A stretch of 64,000 nucleotides of DNA. Source: Phaffia rhodozyma (lineage: Eukaryota; Basidiomycota; Tremellomycetes; Cystofilobasidiales; Mrakiaceae). The DNA lies in assembly GCA_014706385.1 (NCBI GenBank), contig JACGZH010000004.1:1674001-1738000 (forward strand), in the 5' to 3' direction. Positions 8,595 to 44,300 of the stretch are shown piece by piece. The first letter of the stretch is position 1. The number at the start of each line of letters is the position of its first letter. The notes beneath the pieces were generated by a model. The model searched no databases and was not told where the DNA came from. It was given only the letters and a program-made list of their open reading frames with translations. The translations under genes were made by a program, and so were the position numbers.

Positions 8595-10965
8595 TTAGAG
8601 CTTGGGTTCTTCCTCATCGGCGAGCTTCTTGGAAGTCTCGTTACCGAACGTCGGGACGGCAAGCTCACTGTTGGATCCGACCGAATCTGTGAGCTCATCG
8701 AAAGTGCCAAAGACGTCGGCGTCGTCGACCTGGCCGACGCCCGGAGGACGATCAATCTTGTTAAGGACGAGCCAGAGGAAAGTCGCGATAGCAAAACCGA
8801 GTGGCCACGCCAAGTAGGACAACCTGACCAGTTTGAGGGAGACCACGACCTTGCCCTTGGTGACGGTAGATATGAAACCAGGGAGAGACGGTCCAATAGA
8901 GCAGGCCCAGACGAAAGGTGCCTTGAGGTTGACTCCATGGAAGAACCAATAGTCGGACGAGTAGTTGGGGGTGTACAGGTGGGATAACCTGACCTTCTGT
9001 CGACGAAGGACGAAGTAGTCGGCAAACATGATACCGGCAAGAGGGCCGAGGAAGATGGAGTAACCGGAGAGGACGGAGAGGAAGGTGGTGGCCGTATTGA
9101 CGAGCTGCCAGGGGTTGATGGCGAAACCGACGACGGCGACGACGGCAGATCCTCGCTTGACATCGATATACCTGGGGAACATGGTGGCCAAGTCAATTCC
9201 ACCCACAACACCACAGGTGACGACGTTGATGCAAAGCTGACTGCAGATGAAGGAGAGCGAGAGGAAGAACAAGGCGGCCCGGCAACCGGAGGTGGGGTTG
9301 TGTTGTTGGATGGCTTGGATCATCTTGTACGGTTGCCAGAGCAGTCCAGATTCAGGATACAATCCAGCTCCGCAACTAGTGATGATCAATCCGATGACTG
9401 AGGTGCCGATCAAAGAGGCTGGGACGATGAATGCCTGACCCCAAACTGAAAGTAGCGAGAGGAAAGGGAAGAGGAAGAAAACACACGCGCACATTAGCGA
9501 TCAACGAAACATAGTATGACTGTAAGAGTTGGATACTTACTTTGATCTCCAGGCTTTCGGGCGTATCGAGAAAAGTCTATTGGGCGAGACGTGAGCGAAA
9601 CGATGAGATCGTGAGTTGATTGAAGGGAGGACTAGAGCGGAAGGATAGATTGAGGAACCTACCGGCAGCATAGATGATAGCACCGGACCAGGCTCCGATC
9701 TTTGCGGTAATTCCTCTGGTCATGGCCCAACCAAGCTGAACGCTGGTGAGAGGCTTTATTTTGAGCAACTTGGAGGTATCATAGATAAGTGGTCCGGCAT
9801 TTCCTTGCTTGGCAACAACGTAGGCCAACAGGGCGATCGTCGCGATGGACACACAGAACGACGAGACAACGGCTGGGATTCGGTATCTTTCCGGTCGGAC
9901 GAACAGTAGAGGGAACGCAAGACACCAGAAGATGACGTAGCAGATGAAGTCATTGGTTTTCATGTTTGCCGAGGCGGGGAAGTGGTTCTTCATGGTGTAA
10001 AACCCGGGCCAGAAGGTGGCGATCAAGTTTTTGACAAGCTGACCACCGAACCAGCCTTGGTAACCGTACCAAACGAAACTGAGAATAAGCCTGTTGGCGA
10101 CGACGAACCAGGCTCCTCGGACTCCCCAAGGAGCTCTATTTCCGACGGCGAAGGGAATGTGCCAGCTGAGGCGGATGAAAGACGATAGGAAGTGAACAAG
10201 GAAAAACAAAGGATGTGAAGAGAGGGTTTAGTCTACCGGAGACGGAGGCTAGAGAAGGCGCGCAAGCAAATAGAAGAGAGATGACTCACGTTCCACCTTG
10301 CATACCGTTGGCGACTAGAGCGGCGGTAATGATGAGATCAGCAATGACGGTCGCTAGAATGGACTGCCACACGTTCTGTAAAGGAGAATGAAGGGAACGG
10401 ATAAAAAAAGAAGAAAAAAAACGAATAGAGGAAAGATTAGATAAGAGCGCTGTACCAAACCAGACTGCATACGCTAGGGAGTGAAACTATATCAGCAACT
10501 TACAAGACCGAGAGAAAGTAGGGTGGACGACCCAGCAAGATCAGACACATTGATAGCTGGAGGCGTGATTGGTACATTCGGTTGTGGATACGAACGTATG
10601 TGCGCACGTGGAAGGTCAATTAGGAATCATCAGCTGACAAGAAAAATTGAAGAAAAAGAAGAAGAAGAAAATAAGGATGAAACTGACTGGTAGCGAGCCA
10701 GAACCAGAAGAAAGTGGTCTTTGTCCAAGTTCTCCTTGAAGGAGGCAAAGGTTTGATGTCTTCGTTGATCTGACAAAGGAATGGATTGACCGAAGGAATG
10801 ATAAGAACATTGACAACGATAGCAACAAGGGCAAAACAAGACGTTGATACATACATAAGGCGATGGGTCACCGACGACTTCTGCAAACCTGAACGTCCTC
10901 CTGAAGACACTCATGCTCTGATAGGGCGAGGGCGAGAACGCCGATGTTGAGGCTGATGTCTCCAT
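8595..10965 (-). CDS. NCS1-family permease (uracil/allantoin/purine-related transporter)
   Basis: Plasma-membrane nucleobase:cation symporter-1 family member. Exons run leftwards from METSASTS (10965). The cytosolic lead ends in the family pattern NEDIKPLPPSRRTW, followed by TM1 (TFFWFWLAT) and further helices. The WYGYQGWFGGQ segment and DFSRYARKPGDQ match conserved NCS1 positions, as does GFAINPWQLVN in TM8-9. A long 3' exon (8595 to about 9450) holds the last helices and an acidic tail ending EEEPKL. About seven introns were placed; the small exon around 10.5 kb (INVSDLAGSS) is supported by phase and family order. Substrate cannot be told from sequence alone: uracil (Fur4), allantoin (Dal4), uridine and thiamin (Thi10) carriers share this fold. 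The start could also be a downstream Met (SMSVFRRTF). Confidence 0.88.
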
Positions 10966-30234: not shown

Positions 30235-30425
30235 GCCATGCAAAAAACACGGTGAGAGTGATCTCAACCGATGGTAGTCGATACATGGCCCTTTTAGACT
30301 GGGATGACCTCGGACCACAAACCACCGAGATCCCATGGGTCATGGGTCAAGTTTGCCCTCGTCGATAGGACAGCGGCAGCGGCAAGAGCAGCAGAAGCAG
30401 CAGTGGTAAACACTAGCACCACTGG
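30235..30425 (-). mobile_element. Solo 3' tail of a Fanzor-type element (copy A)
   Basis: On the minus strand this stretch repeats the end of the element found at 33.6 and 38.0 kb. It includes a degraded Ala-rich coding end (VFTTAASAALAAAA), the 25-residue C-terminal extension shared with copy B, the hairpin at 30300-30335 and the terminal T-run flanked by short inverted repeats. Over about 120 nt it differs from copy B by essentially one base between 30247 and 30370, implying recent common origin or conversion. No other part of the gene is present, so it is a 5'-truncated insertion or a non-autonomous unit. It lies between the PRP8 promoter and the 3' end of the MFS gene. Confidence 0.75.
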
Positions 30426-30624
30426 TGAGTGTTCAACGCGGACGAGTGTCCTCTTTAGCCGATTTCTATATGTTTTCAAGCTGTCGAGATTGATTCCTCT
30501 TTGTTTGCAGAAAACTTCTCTAATTAACTCGACTGACCGTCGATGATGATGAGCAACGTCATGATGGCTCTACAACTTATAGATAAAGGCATGAACATAT
30601 AAAGAGACAGGGCAACAAAGCAAC

Positions 30625-33589: not shown

Positions 33590-34495
33590 TGCAAAAAGCA
33601 TGGTGAGAGTGATCTCAACCGATGGTAGTCGATACATGGCCCTTTTAGACTGGGATGACCTCGGACCACAGACCACCGAGATCCCATGGGTCATGGGTCA
33701 AGTTTGCCCTCGTCGATAGGACAGCCTCAGCCTCAGCCTCAGCCTCAGTATCAACTTCACGGTGAGCTTCAGCGGCAGGGTCGAATACAAGCATACTCAT
33801 TCCCGCATTGTCCTTCTGATGAAGGGTCAGGTACAATATGTTATGCAACGCATTGACATCTCTATTCCACCAAGTCTGAGAGCAATCAGAGAGATCAGTG
33901 AAAATTATCAGTATTTGACACCCCATCCTGAGACACTATCCTGAGATGTACAGAGTACGCGATTTACTCGACAGACGCTTCGACACTATTTCAGCGCCCA
34001 CACTTTGCCCTTCCCGAGAACTCGCCATGGCATGTGGATCACATTCTCGGCGTCCAGAACCCCAAACCTTACGAGCCTGGAGCAGCAGGAATGCTTTCAG
34101 CTTGAAGAGCAGCGTCTTCATTGGGCCAGGATCATGTCTATGGGAAGTCGATGAGAAGGTACCGTCTCCTGACGCCAGAAGGGCATGTGAGCGTCCTCTT
34201 GATGAGAAGGTTGCTAGCTCGTGGTACGTTTTCTCTCGGCTGATGTCTGCACCTCAGCGGAGGCATCTCCACCGTCGAGCAGGTAGAAACATGGAAAATC
34301 GTCAACGAGACTCAAAATAGATGCGAGAGCAGCGCGGAGAACATCGAGATTGGCAGCTCTGAATGAAGGAACACCTGAAGAAGAAAACCGAAGCAAGACA
34401 ATGAGGCAAGAAAATTAGTCTGCAGTGTTAGCAAGGCAGTTTGCACAGTCAGAGTGAGTGTGAAAGGCACTCGTAATGAAGATCTGATGAAGAGA
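33590..34495 (-). pseudogene. Inverted, decayed 3' half of a Fanzor-type gene (copy B)
   Basis: The minus strand aligns with 37.15-38.06 kb of the right copy, including both introns. Read in order it has a degraded RuvC/insert region, a zinc-ribbon region in which one cysteine codon is now TGA and the frame is shifted, then an intron ending CTCTCAG. After that comes a clear TWWNRDVNALHNILYLTLHQ (RuvC-III) and an Asp/Glu-Ala repeat tail. Unlike the right copy, the frame continues another 25 residues through the tail hairpin to a stop at 33645. Nothing homologous is seen left of about 33590 or beyond about 34495, so the N-terminal half with RuvC-I is missing. It cannot encode an active nuclease. 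Confidence 0.75.
33600..33725 (-). repeat. Element 3' tail repeat, copy B
   Basis: A roughly 120-nt tail almost identical to copy A, and about 80 percent similar by eye to the right copy at 37945-38056. It includes the hairpin arms at 33651-33686 and the terminal T5 tract at the outer edge. Confidence 0.85.
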
Positions 34496-34710: not shown

Positions 34711-35222
34711 GCAAGCTGAGTATGGGTTGTCTTCAGTGTTCTGGTGGTGTGCGATCCTGAGGATGACAGAATCCCAGAGGACCACGTGCCAGCCGAGCTC
34801 AGTTAGGGTTGCCCTCGCGCAGCACAAGGTTCGCGATCTTTGCCTAGTTATCGCCAATCGGCGGCTTACATTATTGACAACCTCTCCAACCAAGCGTGAA
34901 TCAATGATCAATTGAATGACGATGGGTTGTTGTCCTGGAATCTGTCCTCTGTCTTCTCTTCGTCCTACAAGTTTTGTTCATTGCTCACACTCTACCTAGG
35001 TTCACTTTTACCTTATATTTTTGTCTCTTTATCTATTCATGTCTTTGTCTTTGTCTTTGTCTGAGGACGGTAGAGCCTTCACCAGGTCGTTCATCATGAC
35101 CGACAGCCAGTCGAACTGATCAAAGGGGAAACCGGTCAAAGGAGATTTTCTGCAAACAAGCAGACATCAATCCCAACAGCTTATAAGACACAACGAACTC
35201 GAGACGATCAGAGCGCTCTTCT

Positions 35223-35276
35223 ATATCAGAACATCTCTTCATATCAGAACACTTCTCCATACCAGAACACTCATCA
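35223..35276. repeat. 18-bp tandem repeat (three units) upstream of the Fanzor-like gene
   Basis: Three imperfect 18-bp units beginning ATATCAGAACA / ATACCAGAACA lie directly before the presumed start codon at 35313. They are probably in the promoter or 5' UTR of the element gene. Confidence 0.8.
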
Positions 35277-35312
35277 GTTGCTTTGAGGAGTGCCGCTCCT
35301 CTTGTGTTCGAC

Positions 35313-37944
35313 ATGAAGCGCAAGAGGACGGTTCAGGCCTCGACAAAGTCTTCCCTTGCGGCTAACACTACCGCTACTACTACCGCTACTACTACTACTA
35401 CTACTACTACTGCCACATGCTCAGCCTGCGGTCAGATTGGGCACTCTATGCGATCTAATCACCTCTGCCCGTTTTACATCCCTCGTCAGAGGGTGGAAAT
35501 CCGCGCTAAGTCAGCGGTCCCTATGGTGTCAGGGACAGTAAAGATAGGCTTTGGTTCTTTACTCGCCTTTAAGCCACTGGCTGGCCCGATCGAGTCCGCC
35601 GTTGCCCGGCTAGGAAAGATAACATTCGACGCGTCTCGCCTTCTCAATATCCACATGTCAAAGGTCTGCGCGGATGGAGGGGAGATACCAAACCTTCCCA
35701 ATATAATGCGGCTCTATCTTCAGGCTGTTGGCTTTAACAAGCGTGGAGGAAATCTGCACCAAGGAGCGCCAACACTGAACGAAGGGATCAACCACATCCG
35801 GGACACCTCTTTCCCTGCTGAGCACCAGTTCACAGACTCAAAGCGAGTGATCTCTTTGGCAATGACAATGGTAATGGTGATGCAGCTGGCTGCGAACAGG
35901 GACTGACTGATTTGCTGCTTTCATAGATTCCTGAGCAGAATGATCGGCGCCAAAGCCCTGTTGTAGACCACGGCCTGCCAGAACCATGTCGCCCTGAACA
36001 TGCCGCGCCGGGCTTCTCGGCTCATCTCTTAGTGGCTGGAGACAAACGTTGGAGAAGCGATCCAGAGTCGGATCAGTATCAGCCAGGTAAGGAAGACAAG
36101 TCATCTGAGGAGATATCTGAATAAAGGCTGCAGCGATGACTGACCTATCTGACCTATCCGATACATCTGTTCGTTCTTAGCGCACTGCCCTCTCCCATCA
36201 ACTCTAGGAGCAACTGTCCCCTCTCCCACCTCGAGGAGGAGGAGAGGGTGAAGAAAGAGAAGAGGGAGAAGAGGATAGAGAGGAGGAGCCACCACAAGCT
36301 GCTACATCCTTGGCGGCCTCGCCCTGGCTACTCAAACTCCTCCTTCCTGACCAGCGCACGGTGATGGAGGCGCATCTCCGAGTGTTGTTCGACTTCCTCA
36401 CAGATGACATCTTTGGAGGTTTGCCTCTGACGGGTGAGGCCATCAAGACCTCGTGGCGATTATATCTCCGCCCTCTGTACCGGATACTGACCATCTTTGA
36501 GGAACATGGCCCCCAAGATGCGGCTACAAGACGGACCACTCGTCGCCGGGGGCATGGCCTCCGCCTGTTCTCGCTTCTGCCGCTCTCGTCTCACCGGTCG
36601 TCCTATGTCTTTGTAGACACCATGATACTCTACGACCTTTGGTGCCAGCTCAAATCGGAGGACGCGGATATGGGATATATGCGCGGGGTGACTCAGGTGT
36701 CCTTCCGGGATGACTCTGACACTTGGTGGAAGAGGTCGTTCCATATATCCAAAGTCAAGACCAGAAAGCGACAGTTCGCCATGTCGCTCAGCACGGACGG
36801 CATCGGCGTGTCTGCCGGAATGCTGAGACCCATGTCGTCTTCATCTGGCATCGACGCCTACGGATGGAGATGGGAGGGCGAAGAAAAGGACCGTCACCGA
36901 GTAGAGTATGTGCCGTGGGGTGTGCGGCCAGAGGACGAGGTCGTGGGGCTGGACCCAGGCCGTCGGACGCTGCTCTCGACAACCGCAGGAGGGATCGACA
37001 TGTCTCTGGACAACGGCGGTCTGGCCGAGCACGGCACGCAGTGGTCGCTCTCTCTCAAGTAATGGAGGCACCTTGCGGGGATGGACCGAGACGCTCGGAA
37101 ACAGCGGCTGTGGATGAAGAACCATGCGGAAGTGTCAACCACTATCCATGGTGAGTGCCTCTCACGCTCACACCCACGTTCAAGCTGACTGTATGAACAG
37201 CCTTACTGACCTTGCAAACTGTCTTGCCCACCTCGGTGTCGTGCTTCGGCTTCTTTCTTCGGTGTCTTTCTCCAGATCTTCCTTCGTTCAGATCTGCCAG
37301 TCTCGATCGTCTCCGCGCTGCTCTCGTCATACACTCTCAGTCCTACTCCTGGCTCGCGACCTTCTTCGCTGCTCGAAGGTGGAGACGTCTTCGCTGGGGC
37401 GCGCACATCAGCCGCGAACAAGCGTACCACAAGGTGGCGCTCCGTCTGTCGGCAGGAAGTCCAAGCACCTTCTTGGCCTTCGGCGACGGCGCCTTCTCGT
37501 CGTCTTCTCGTGGGCATGCACCTGGTCCTGTGAAGACGATGTATGCCAAGCTGAGGGCCTCTCCGCTGCTCCATTTTCGCACAGTCCGGGGGTATCGGAC
37601 GTCGAGAGTGTGCTTCAAGTGTCATGGCGAGTTCTCTGGGAGGAACAAAGCGTGGGCGATCAAGGAATGTCGGAGCGTCTGTCGAGTAAGTGCCGTGTGT
37701 TACATACTTATGATAGTGTCTCGATGACTGACCGTTCTCTGTGCTTGCTCATTGATTTCTATGCTTTCTCTCTGCTCTCTCTCAGACTTTGTGGAACAGA
37801 GATGTGAACACGTCGCGCGACATGCTGCACCTAGCCCTTCACCAGGACGAGAACGAAGGGGCGAGAATGCTGGCGTTTGACACCGCTGCTGCTAGTGAGG
37901 CTGATGTTGAGACTGAGGCTGGCACTGAGGCTGGCAGAAACTAA
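35313..37944 (+). pseudogene. Fanzor-type (eukaryotic TnpB/OMEGA) RNA-guided nuclease gene, near full length, probably inactivated
   Basis: Predicted homologue of TnpB/Fanzor. It starts MKRKRTVQ (35313), then poly-Thr from an ACT array and a zinc knuckle CSACGQIGH...C. Proposed exons: 35313-35870, 35927-36086, about 36208/36236-37150, 37201-37685 and 37786-37944. Motifs in order are FAMSLSTDGIGVS (TDG, 36793-36801), VVGLDPGRRTLL (RuvC-I Asp, 36952-36954), WRHLAGMDRDARKQ, FSSSSRGHAPGPVKTM, and YRTSRVCFKC with ECRSVC (zinc ribbon, C codons at 37611, 37620, 37668, 37680). WNRDVN (RuvC-III Asp, 37801-37803) follows. The tail is Glu/Ala-rich with a stop at 37942-37944. Breaks: TAA at 37060-37062 inside a conserved stretch, an exon 2/3 junction that does not phase cleanly, and Gly where related proteins often have Glu before RTS. 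Introns are 50-100 nt with good consensus. A non-TnpB RuvC transposon protein is the alternative, but the motif order argues against it. Confidence 0.72.
35371..35413 (+). repeat. ACT trinucleotide microsatellite inside the Fanzor-like gene
   Basis: An imperfect (ACT/GCT)n array encodes a Thr-rich linker just before the zinc knuckle. It is likely to vary in length between strains. Confidence 0.85.
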
Positions 37945-38056
37945 ACCCATAACCCATGGGAACCTTGGTGATTCGTGGTCCGAGGTCATCCCAGTCCAAG
38001 AGGATCATGTATCGACCACCATCGGTTAAGATCACTCTCACCATGCTTTTTGCATG
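37945..38056 (+). ncRNA. Candidate omegaRNA scaffold / element right end
   Basis: This segment follows the Fanzor-like stop codon and recurs at two other loci. A hairpin at 37957-37993 pairs TGGGAACCTTGG with CCGAGGTCATCCCA (12 pairs, a CA bulge, an 11-nt loop). In copies A and B the left arm is TCTCGG instead of CCTTGG, and each change keeps pairing through G-U or G-C. The segment ends in a perfect hairpin, CATGC-TTTTT-GCATG (38042-38056). In TnpB/Fanzor systems the guide RNA is read from the 3' end of the gene into flanking DNA, so the guide would begin just after 38056. Transcription is not shown by sequence. Confidence 0.45.
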
Positions 38057-38100: not shown

Positions 38101-39525
<1,425 letters not shown>

Positions 39526-41046
39526 GATGTGTAGTTTGGAAAAAGGATGGATTTGAGGTGGATGAAGCCGATTATGGGTTTGAGAACAGGAAGAGTAAGG
39601 GGGAGTGGTCTGAAAAAATGAAGGTAAAATGCAGAAAGAGAGATGGGAGACTGTTCGCGCCTGTTTTTATAGTCGAAAATAGGGGCGGAGAAGGATCGAG
39701 AAGGTGCGGCACCCGTGTTCATGTCACGCATGGATGCCGGATTTACTTCTGGGGCGGAGAAGAGAAGAGCGGAACGTTCGAGTTCGTCACGAGCGGTCGT
39801 TGTGTTATCTAATGATTGCTATGAGAATGACCTATAGATAGCTACTATAGGCGACAGTCGCCAGATAAATAAATTGATGGGCAAGGAGACGGACCTCCGT
39901 GCTTCCGTCCCATGTGATTGGGGGGAAAAAGTCGGACGCGATTGGAATATTCGTCTTTATTCAATTTATCGAGAGAAAAAATTCCTCCTTTGAATTAAAA
40001 AAAAAAAGAAAGGAAAAAAAGAAAAAGGAAAGAGCCTTTCTAGACAATGACAAGCCTGATGAGGCAACTGAGCCACCAGGTAGTCTTCATAGGGACGAAT
40101 AGAGACTATTGATGAAGTCTGATATGTCCAGGGAAAAATTAGCTTGGATAGAGACCGAGAGACGGTTCCATCACGATTGAGCTGACAAGCCCATCTGATG
40201 AGATGTCTTTGTTTTTTTTTTGTTTTTTGTTTTTTACATTTTTTTTACATTTTTTTTGCCACAGTAAGTCTCAGAAGAGGAGTGCAACGCTGTAGGTCTT
40301 TTCGGAAGCCTAGGTTAGTGAATTTTTGGGTTTGACCAAGACATCTCGGTTAGTGAAATCGAGAACTAGCTACGACCTCGAGTCAATGGTTTCTCCAAAG
40401 CACATTCGCGTCGCACGAATTACCGTGATCCGCTATTGACCGTATGTTCTCAGCCCGTGAAGGCACCGGTTTTGCTTTGGAAGACAAGAAAAGGTAGTAT
40501 AATATGATATAATATGGTATAGTAGGGTATTCATTGAATCAAAGCATAGTAGACTACAAGATACAGAAACAGGAAAGAGGAGAACGGGAAAGAGAAGATA
40601 AAAAGGAAAAAAGGAAAGAAATCAGGATGAAGAAGAGATGAAGAAGAAGAAAAGAAAAGAAGAACTCAAGACGAATGCCGTTTAATACTCTGGCAAGATG
40701 GTTACGGTCATGTAACACCGGCGTTGCATCCGCAGCAACCTTTCCTCACGTGGCGCACAGGTCCGATCAAAACAACAACAATCACTTGTCTTCTTATTTA
40801 TACAGACTAATCTGAAGATGAGATCTATCCTTTCTCCTTCTTGTGTTTCTTTCCCTCCGTTCAGTCTATCGCATCCTTCTACCCACACTCGTTCACTCTA
40901 GTTGTCCTTTGGGCTGCTCAAAAGTGGCCTGTTTCCTTCATTGTCGGTCTTTTACTCATGCTCTCCTTTTCGCAGGCGCGCAAGCTGATAACTATCTCGT
41001 GGCTTATTACAGAGTCCCTTTTAGACCTTTCACCCGCCTCCCTCTG
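39526..41046. other. Intergenic region between divergent THI4 and subtilase genes
   Basis: About 1.5 kb. T-run clusters at 40210-40257 (T8-T9 blocks separated by G or ACA) and an AT-rich TATAATATG repeat near 40498-40530 are visible, then a purine-rich tract. It should contain both promoters. No gene was recognised, nor a TPP riboswitch core on the minus strand. Confidence 0.5.
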
Positions 41047-41286
41047 ATGAAGTTCCTTGCTTCTCTTTTCCTTTTGGCCTCCTCGGTCACGGCCGCCGTA
41101 CTCAATCCTTCCGATACTGCTAATTCTATTCCTGTGTGTATTATGTTGTATCGTGTGATTTCCTATGCGCGAAAGTCATCTTCCATATGCTTCGTGTTTG
41201 TACATCGGCTGACGACATAGGAAACATGTGAACTATATTCTTTGTTGCGTTTTTATTAATTGCTTTATTATTACTATTATTACTAC

Positions 41287-41323
<37 letters not shown>

Positions 41324-44300
41324 GGAAACCTATGTTCCTAACAAATGGATAGTTGAGTATTCCTCTGGAGTCGTCAGTAGTAAGCGATCCATGGTAAGTC
41401 TTCTCGTGCCGTGTATCATCTGCCTCATGCGCACTGAACAAATCATGCCTCATCTACTTTGCTTGATCGCGCGCTTTGCTACGCAGGACCCTCATGAAGC
41501 TTTTAGCTCTCATATGGAAAAGAGGGGTATTCTTCACGACGTCCTTCGAGTATTTAGCAGCCAGGGTCTCTTCACTGGAGCTACTATTGCTGTTGCCGAT
41601 GCCGTTCGTACTTTTCCCAATCTTCTTCAAACATATCGTTAGCCAGACACTTGCTCTAGTCATGCTGACCCTTTCAAGTTCCATTGGTGATGTTCGGGCG
41701 CACACATTCAACGACAGGATATTCTATCAGTCCAATCTATCCCTGGCGTCATCCGGGCTTATCCGGTCAGACTCATCCCTCGACCTGATTTCTCCCCCCA
41801 ACCCGGCTCGCTGGCTGGAATCGATACCTAGTTGAGCCTTTCGTTATCTCCTTTCATCGAATTTGTAGCCTAGTGACTGATTTCGATAATCGCGCATCGG
41901 TTATGAATTTACCTTCATCTCATATCTTCTAAACTAAATCAAAAAACCAGCACTCCTCACAAGATGACGAACGTGAGCCAACTTCACAATTTAGGCATCA
42001 AAGGCAAGGGTGTCCAGGTAGCCATCATCGATTCCGGAGTGGATTACAATCATCCTGCTCTCGGAGGATGTTTCGGAACGGGATGCAAGGTCGTGAAGGT
42101 TCGGCTTGTTCTCTCCGTCTTCGTTTCCGTATTAGATTTGATCTAATTGTTACTGAAGCACATCGTCTTCCCTTGCCAATGACATCCCTTGAATCAAAAC
42201 AGGGCTATGACTTTGTGCGTTGCTTACAATGATTCACTCTGTACTCCCCTTGGTTCTGAATCTGATGTCTTCCTTTTGATATATCAGGTCGGAAATGCTT
42301 ATACTGGAGGAACGTCCACTCCCGTCGAAGGTACCAATCCGATCGACTGTTCTGGCCATGGAACCCATGTCGCCGGTATCTTTGGAGCAAATGATAATGT
42401 CAACAACTTGTATGTTCAACGGATATATGGCGCTCGATGCGAATAACAAGAGTCTGAATGCTCTGGATCTGATTAAATACAGTACTGGAGTTGCTCCAGA
42501 AGCTACGATCGCTGCGTACAAAGTGTTCGGATGCACGGGAAGTGCTAGCAACGATGTGATCATTGCTGCTATGCTCCGAGCTGCTTCCGAGGTGAGGACT
42601 ATATTCATGATATCAATTCGAAGGAAGTCATGACTCTATCACTCACCATGCCTTCGTTCTTCGTCTTTCTGCTGTTCATCATAGGGATCTCAAATTATCT
42701 CCATGTCGTTGGGTGGCGCGAGTGGTTGGAGCGAAGATGCTGTCTCTGTCGTAGCCTCGAGAATTATTGCACAGGGAATTATCATCGTGAGTTATCGAGA
42801 GACGTGTCCTCACAACAGCAAACCGTCAATGACTGAAGTAGATTTTATGACGCCTTCATACAGACTGCCGCTGAAGGAAATTCCGGTGCCGAAGGTCTCT
42901 TCTATCCTTCCTTCCCTGGTACGGGTAACGGTGTGATCTCCGTTGGCGCTGTTGACAAGTAAGTTCATCGGCATTGCCCGCTCTGTCTATTCATCGACGT
43001 ATGCCAACCAATAAATTCGCAAACTCAACTTTAATGGTACTTCCTAGCCTCGTGACTCCCGGTCGATACACTCTTCTCTCGACCACCCCACCTACACCCA
43101 TCTTCTATGACGGAACCGCCGCTATCAACGTGTCGAGCTCGACTCAATACCCTATCTATCTAGCTTCCAATTCGACAAGTACTGATTCTCAAGGATGCAC
43201 ACCGTTCACAGTTGATCTTACGGGCAAGGTCACGGTAATCAAGTAAGTAAAGACCTGTTCTCTAAATTCGTTTAGGAACCACCAAGGTATATGTGCTAGA
43301 CAAACTAGCTGACACGTGACTGTTGTTCAAAAGACGAGGGATCTGCACATTTACAGTTAAAGCTCAAAACGTGTACAATGCTGGTGGACGAATCGTTCTT
43401 TTCTACAACGTGAGCCGATCTTGCCCTCTCTTTCCTCTATCAAAAGCTCAATTCAACTAAGTTACTTTCCCTGTCGCGACCATTAGACCGCTAACACCGC
43501 GCTCAGTGAGTATCAATTTGTTCTATAAATTCGTTAACACCTCCTATGTGGATAATGACTGATGATCAAGAACCACTATTGACGGGCATCTTGTCTTTCT
43601 CGTTTCAGCTGCAACTGTCAACGGAGTAGCCGTTCAGTCTGGCACTTTGACTCTCACTGGCGGAACAAACCTCGTCAATGCTGTGGTCGCCAATCCCGCG
43701 CTGACAGTATCGTTCCCTACGGGATTCTACAACTTCCCAAACCCTACTACTGGTGGCTTGGTCTCCACGTACGATTCCTCTTGCCGTTTAAGCATCTTTT
43801 TAAATAGAGTTGGTCTTATCCAAATTACGTCTGCATTTTTATCAAAGGCTTTCTTCTTGGGGACCTACGTTCGATCTGAAGATCAAACCCACAATAGCCG
43901 CTCCGGGAGGGAACATTCTGAGTACCTTGCCATTGAGCCAGGGTGCGTATGGTGTTCAGTCTGGAACTAGCGTAAGTTTCCTTTGAGCCGAATACCATAC
44001 ATGAAATGCTCTGTAGACACTGATGTATCTTCAAATGATTATCTGTTCGCATCAGATGTCTTGCCCCTTCATCTGTGAGTAGATCTCTTGGCACACAAGT
44101 CTAGAGTGACGTGACTGATTGGCTCACCAAGATGAATTCTATCCATAGCCGGAGTCATCGCTCTCTACATTCAAAAAAACGGACGCATTGCTCCTGATAC
44201 TATCACCTCGAAGTTAATCACGAGCTCCCATCCTGTCTCCACTACTGTCAATGGCACCTTAATTCAGCCTGTCATTCAGCAAGGAGGAGGCTTGGTAGAT

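Follow-up and report, generated by a model that had tools for sequence, protein, structure and literature searches.

What stands at positions 35313..37944 of a 64,000-nucleotide stretch of basidiomycete DNA (the whole of which we call the window), where the motifs of a Fanzor-type RNA-guided nuclease can be read across what look like spliced exons? The original prediction saw there an RNA-guided nuclease gene of a basidiomycete Fanzor lineage, with a zinc-knuckle head of its own, inside a fungal mobile island. Our answer is a different one in several respects. We hold it very probable that 35022-38055 is a decayed copy, here called W, of a transposable element that carries Fanzor1 only, in Phaffia rhodozyma or a very near relative, to be understood together with a proposed scheme of omegaRNA and mover that we set out below. 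Of the lineage that had been claimed, a spliced Fanzor1 gene in Phaffia, carried by a mobile repeat, survives; the private zinc-knuckle head does not.

A Fanzor1 gene in five exons

35022..38055, + strand: Fanzor element copy W, about 3.03 kb; limits set by homology among copies, 3' end sharp, 5' end approximate
35313..35842, + strand: W exon 1; start codon, threonine run, zinc-knuckle-like CxxC..H..CP motif; GC (not GT) donor at 35843
35927..36086, + strand: W exon 2; in-frame TAG at 35964 and 36030
36181..37150, + strand: W exon 3; TDG motif, RuvC-I GLDPG with D488 at 36952-36954; two stops in frame (TAG at 36205, TAA at 37060)
37276..37685, + strand: W exon 4; RuvC-II site changed from Glu to Gly at 37590-37592; C-x2-C...C-x3-C ribbon
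37786..37944, + strand: W exon 5; WNRDVN, RuvC-III D696 at 37801-37803; stop codon

Joined together, these exons give a frame of 742 codons plus stop, running from the ATG at 35313 to a stop codon that ends at 37944. Along it STDG, GLDPG (D488), C-x2-C...C-x3-C and WNRDVN (D696) follow one another in the TnpB/Fanzor order, just as had been predicted, and CFKC...CRSVC-RTLWN-RD supplies a C4 zinc ribbon followed by RD. With the spacing counted by hand, the translation satisfies the published Fanzor/TnpB motif D-X(125,275)-[TS][TS]-X-X-C4-X(5,50)-RD (PMC3627910). The intron limits were taken from comparison with paralogues, that of intron 3 from homologues. An exon 4 start at 37201, with which all aligned copies looked broken, was replaced after homologue alignment by one at 37276, behind a phase-matching acceptor ending at 37275. 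In our alignment A6 most homologues are continuous over the exon 3/4 join as corrected, and the additional residues of homologues P0001 and P0005 at this join look like a retained intron. The threonine (ACT) run of exon 1, at about 35362-35415 of the window, differs in length among copies, with 105 bp more in copy L004 than in W.

The match is far beyond chance: the translation of exons 3-5, searched against 5.8 billion proteins (8000 candidates scored), has its best relative at E 5.3e-73. The original prediction had proposed profile and fold comparisons as its checks. The profile search, made with the homologues, bears it out with a match to SpuFz1 at 5.4e-19, and when the fold model of homologue P0002 was compared by VIA-align the top 7 rows were all Fanzor1. 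The nearest relatives by profile and fold, both taken through homologues of W, are Fanzor1 and not Fanzor2, TnpB or Cas12. Single exon sequences of W found nothing in the PDB, SpuFz1 being reached only by profiles that include homologues; W alone gave weak matches in Pfam and NCBIfam (PF07282 at E 0.012, under the curated cut-off); and a scan of viral_contigs for relatives returned 45 pattern-matching stretches, none of them confirmed.

The N-terminal C-x(1,2)-C...H...CP motif, once taken for the lineage's own head, is found in 7 of the 8 A6 homologues that cover the N terminus; P0012 is without the first Cys pair, and P0019 has a wider Cys-His spacing. Amoeboaphelidium P0014 carries it too, and Amoeboaphelidium does not belong to the Basidiomycota. 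Amoeboaphelidium and metagenomic Fanzor1 proteins form one family with the Phaffia protein; in A6 they share 28-39% identity with the open copy described below, and P0004 has DGG in RuvC-I where Phaffia has DPG. Among other Fanzor1 proteins, the third catalytic residue is Asn in GtFz1 of Guillardia theta (PMC11423790) and Asp in 11 of 12 aligned Phaffia copies, and PpFz1 of Parasitella parasitica has a cyclophilin-binding RuvC insertion. Among the open-access papers searched, none joins Fanzor with Basidiomycota; Fanzor and Cryptococcus meet only in a review on another subject, and Fanzor and Phaffia in none of the matches listed.

A family of copies with one open frame

A genome search with the element found at least 55 matching pieces (40 scored of 66 candidates); some pieces belong to one copy, and all copy counts are lower bounds. 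The 3' end as query matched 41 places and the 5' end 23, and near-full copies have about 3 kb in common. Element 5' ends are nested and variable and the 3' end is constant; W is probably truncated at its 5' end, because other copies have a longer leader. The copies are dispersed and share one right end, the mark of a multi-copy carrier that was presumably mobile.

Among the 12 copies aligned over the gene (W included, and L026 spanning about half of the frame), 11 are interrupted by stops, by frameshifts or by both. The exception is L003 on contig C3 (exons 38731 to 41376), which has no stops or frameshifts, four GT..AG introns, the catalytic D/E/D and a frame of 732 amino acids; since the exon 4 start was moved to 37276, a 26 bp duplication in L003 falls in an intron and the frame is open. 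Stop-free matches to the complete exon 3, searched genome-wide, came only from W and L003. The RuvC-I Asp is kept in 10 of the 12 (Asn in L007, a gap in L026) and the RuvC-II Glu in 9 (Gly in W, Lys in L007, Asp in L008). Third-position differences exceed those at first and second positions in 13 of 13 copy pairs, and do so by 1.4- to 2.3-fold where the pairs are closer (counted with exon 4 starting at 37201), from which we infer that the protein was probably under selection as the family spread.

Several Fanzor copies are found no more than about 100 kb from the end of a contig (C2, C3, C8, C10, C12, C13, C14 and C15), the open one among them at about 38 kb on C3.

Many copies are short or truncated, and the window holds one of each besides W:

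33590..34398, - strand: Fanzor copy B, older and 5'-truncated (it holds exon 4 onward), identity about 71%, oriented head to head against W
30237..30609, - strand: copy C, short and gene-less, with the 5' and 3' ends of the element closely joined

From 64 candidate 3' ends we aligned 58, having dropped two poorly aligning matches in the window (one of which may be a decayed 3' end), three that were truncated or doubtful, and one duplicate. Matches to exons 1, 3 and 4 lie upstream of 12 of the 58, and to one or two of these exons upstream of 13. No exon match was found upstream of 16 ends with at least 600 nt of upstream sequence, nor of 17 with less than 600 nt, and in this last group the absence does not settle every case. 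Several gene-less copies are made up of the element's 5' leader and its last ~280 bp, as in the short-context loci L058, L060, L062 and L064, and they have the 3' end in common with the gene-bearing ones. In this they resemble the S. punctatus loci that lack the gene, 134 in number, whose ghost omegaRNA scaffolds function in human cells according to PMC10432273. Set against the SpuFz1 / Spu-1 loci, with 19 full-length copies, the Phaffia family has one open copy among the 12 aligned; unlike SpuFz1 it has introns, variable 5' ends and no inverted repeat of 16 nt or more linking the two ends of W (shorter ones are not excluded).

Just upstream of gene-less Fanzor 3' ends, L038 shares about 2 kb with L032/L047 (L038:1-2054 against L032:7221-9264, on C3 at ~506-508k and C12 at ~699-701k, 95-98% identical), and the L038 part holds a frame of 473 amino acids. 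We considered this as part of a possible larger parent transposon, and could assign the frame to no family.

The right end

37945..38055, + strand: non-coding 3' end, candidate omegaRNA scaffold; 58 copies aligned, same place as in SpuFz1 loci
38043..38055, + strand: terminal hairpin ATGC-TTTTT-GCAT; arms covarying in 36 type I copies

Right ends come in types, and among 63 rows there are 31 of type I (L032p9669 being counted there through a chance match to the pattern), 17 of type II and 15 of neither. Conservation is lost past GCA(T) in type I, sharply so, and past CCATATA in type II. The guide of W, if it has one, would start at ~38055-38056. The hairpin makes up the last ~13 nt of 36 type I ends chosen by eye; there, two-sided cells number 14 against 7.4 +/- 2.3 in shuffled alignments (reached by 3 of 500), and the covariation score and the paired cells were reached by none of 500 shuffles. 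L058 and L060 (C9:1761900-1762340 and C9:1786290-1786720) have near-identical bodies, yet in their final ~30 nt one bears a type I and the other a type II hairpin, as if their right-end tips had been exchanged.

How the element might persist and move

In the scheme that we propose, an intact copy would yield a Fanzor1 nuclease, and the 3' end of the element would be transcribed into an omegaRNA for this nuclease to bind. The adjacent flank would serve as guide, the nuclease would cut matching DNA, and the element's persistence would be aided. A transposase, or else a replication process, able to recognise the hairpin at the end would mobilise Fanzor-bearing and gene-less copies alike.

Several observations weigh against this account. 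The exon structure comes from comparison rather than RNA. The homologue that was modelled shares 31% identity with the open copy; the zinc ribbon of the model, the other half of what the fold check was to place, has low confidence. One TGA lies within the exon 1 match of L003, at 39238, inside the GTGAGTGA donor, the exon ending at 39236. Two of five hairpin measures do not exceed the shuffles (two-sided pairs 3 against 3.2, pair types 10 against 9.6), and these shuffles do not preserve relatedness among copies. Helices further inside the 3' end, drawn by RNAalifold, are unsupported, with 93.1% paired cells against 92.7% in shuffles and 126 of 500 shuffles reaching the value; five single 3'-end sequences fold no better than their shuffles (z 0.14 to -1.30); and the 3' core, nearly gap-free, has an identity of 0.82 against 0.81-0.90 for introns in 8 long copies. 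Target duplications show no excess, a match of at least 9 bases occurring in 4 of 50 ends (8 of the 58 skipped by pattern) against 8.8% of mismatched controls, and we have rejected them as a feature of the element. Genome searches for two protein families found no transposase: the serine recombinase PF00239, a mark of Fanzor2 / IS607-like elements, was absent (the control was positive in 10 of 14 genomes), and the Helitron replication protein PF14214 gave no match, the control genomes being equally without one.

How, then, does the family move? It is quite conceivable, if somewhat short of an even chance, that it does so one-ended, by a rolling-circle (Helitron-like) route, like the CRe-1/2/3 Fanzor1 Helitrons of Chlamydomonas. 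Those elements, as Bao and Jurka (2013, PMC3627910) describe them, likewise have over-represented 3' ends, 5' truncations, internal deletions and a 3' hairpin; here the constant 3' and nested 5' ends, the covarying hairpin and the want of target duplications all suit such a route. CRe copies, many truncated ones included, often bear target duplications and a known Helitron match in the same source, but in Phaffia neither was found (with the Helitron control silent) and no clear CTRR-type end was seen.

The 3' ends, gene-less ones included, might also be transposon termini only, from which no omegaRNA is made. We lean away from this, and still take it seriously: support from covariation is confined to the terminal hairpin, the inner helices are unsupported, the five sequences show no folding excess, and the identity is that of introns. 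Against it stands the position of the block, between stop codon and right end, where the SpuFz1 omegaRNAs are located, and the precedent of working ghost scaffolds (PMC10432273). Because support for inner helices, a folding excess and an identity excess over introns are all absent here, it is the architecture that suggests an omegaRNA. In Rfam, at gathering thresholds, nothing matched in the window.

Within our scheme of nuclease, omegaRNA and mover, one further step is tempting and, to our minds, rather unlikely: that a single intact Fanzor1 gene serves the gene-less right ends dispersed over the genome, each with its own omegaRNA and flank guide, and that the ends also exchange terminal hairpins. 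If true, this would be a one-protein, many-guide system. For the study of what Fanzors do for host or element, Saito et al. (PMC10432273) note that having to remove multiple gene copies is an obstacle. With a single apparently intact Fanzor1 gene and many gene-less right ends, one deletion in Phaffia could show if the protein is needed by the short copies.

The decay of copy W

The original prediction overlooked the four in-frame stops (codons 190, 212, 239 and 524), the GC donor and the Glu-to-Gly change, against which a working nuclease at this locus finds no support. The stops and the donor leave W no open frame able to yield protein. Its RuvC-II Gly aligns by manual count with E541 of SpuFz1; the rearranged RuvC-II Glu pattern is E-x6-C (Yoon et al., PMC10711439). 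Read from its letters, W is a dead pseudogene that would make no nuclease, and since it also lacks the RuvC-II Glu there should be no working RNA-guided nuclease at this locus. Substitutions in the copies resemble ordinary decay with no particular sequence context, and we looked for a CpG-specific or repeat-induced-point-mutation (RIP)-like pattern and saw none.

Nuclease-dead TnpB-like repressors exist, and W, its catalytic residue gone and its ribbon and fold motifs still there, could have lost cleavage and been retained as an RNA-guided binder of that sort, but with four stops in W, stops, frameshifts or both in 10 of the 11 other aligned copies, and so ordinary a decay, we find this hardly credible. 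Equally hard to credit is a functional nuclease gene in which other splicing or recoding bypasses the stops: GLDPG, the Cys ribbon and WNRDVN are retained and exons 3 and 4 are open over long stretches, but such a gene would have to get round four separate stops, the loss of the canonical donor and the change of the catalytic Glu to Gly, defects of which a paralogue has none.

Host and neighbourhood

~20.5-29 kb of the window: PRP8
~31-33 kb of the window: major facilitator superfamily (MFS)-like transporter, read from frames and not from a Pfam match (first exon: none)

The host is identified by a THI4 exon at 38230-38907 on the - strand: over 87% of the query it matches a Phaffia rhodozyma protein at 100% identity, and the second-best match reaches 85%. 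Fanzor elements are interspersed among PRP8, THI4 and the transporter-like gene. Of the mobile island first proposed, what remains is a mobile multi-copy repeat among such neighbours; a larger island was not seen. The window that holds THI4 also holds a cytosine/purine/thiamine permease at 8598-9500 (Transp_cyt_pur, E 1.2e-37).

Elsewhere in the genome, matches to the reverse transcriptase domain RVT_1 occur at C2:0-51k, C10:0-13k and both ends of C14, and also on C8, C9, C11 and C13. Those on C2, C10 and C14 form tandem arrays with a spacing of ~3.5-5 kb and look like telomere-proximal non-long-terminal-repeat (non-LTR) retrotransposons.
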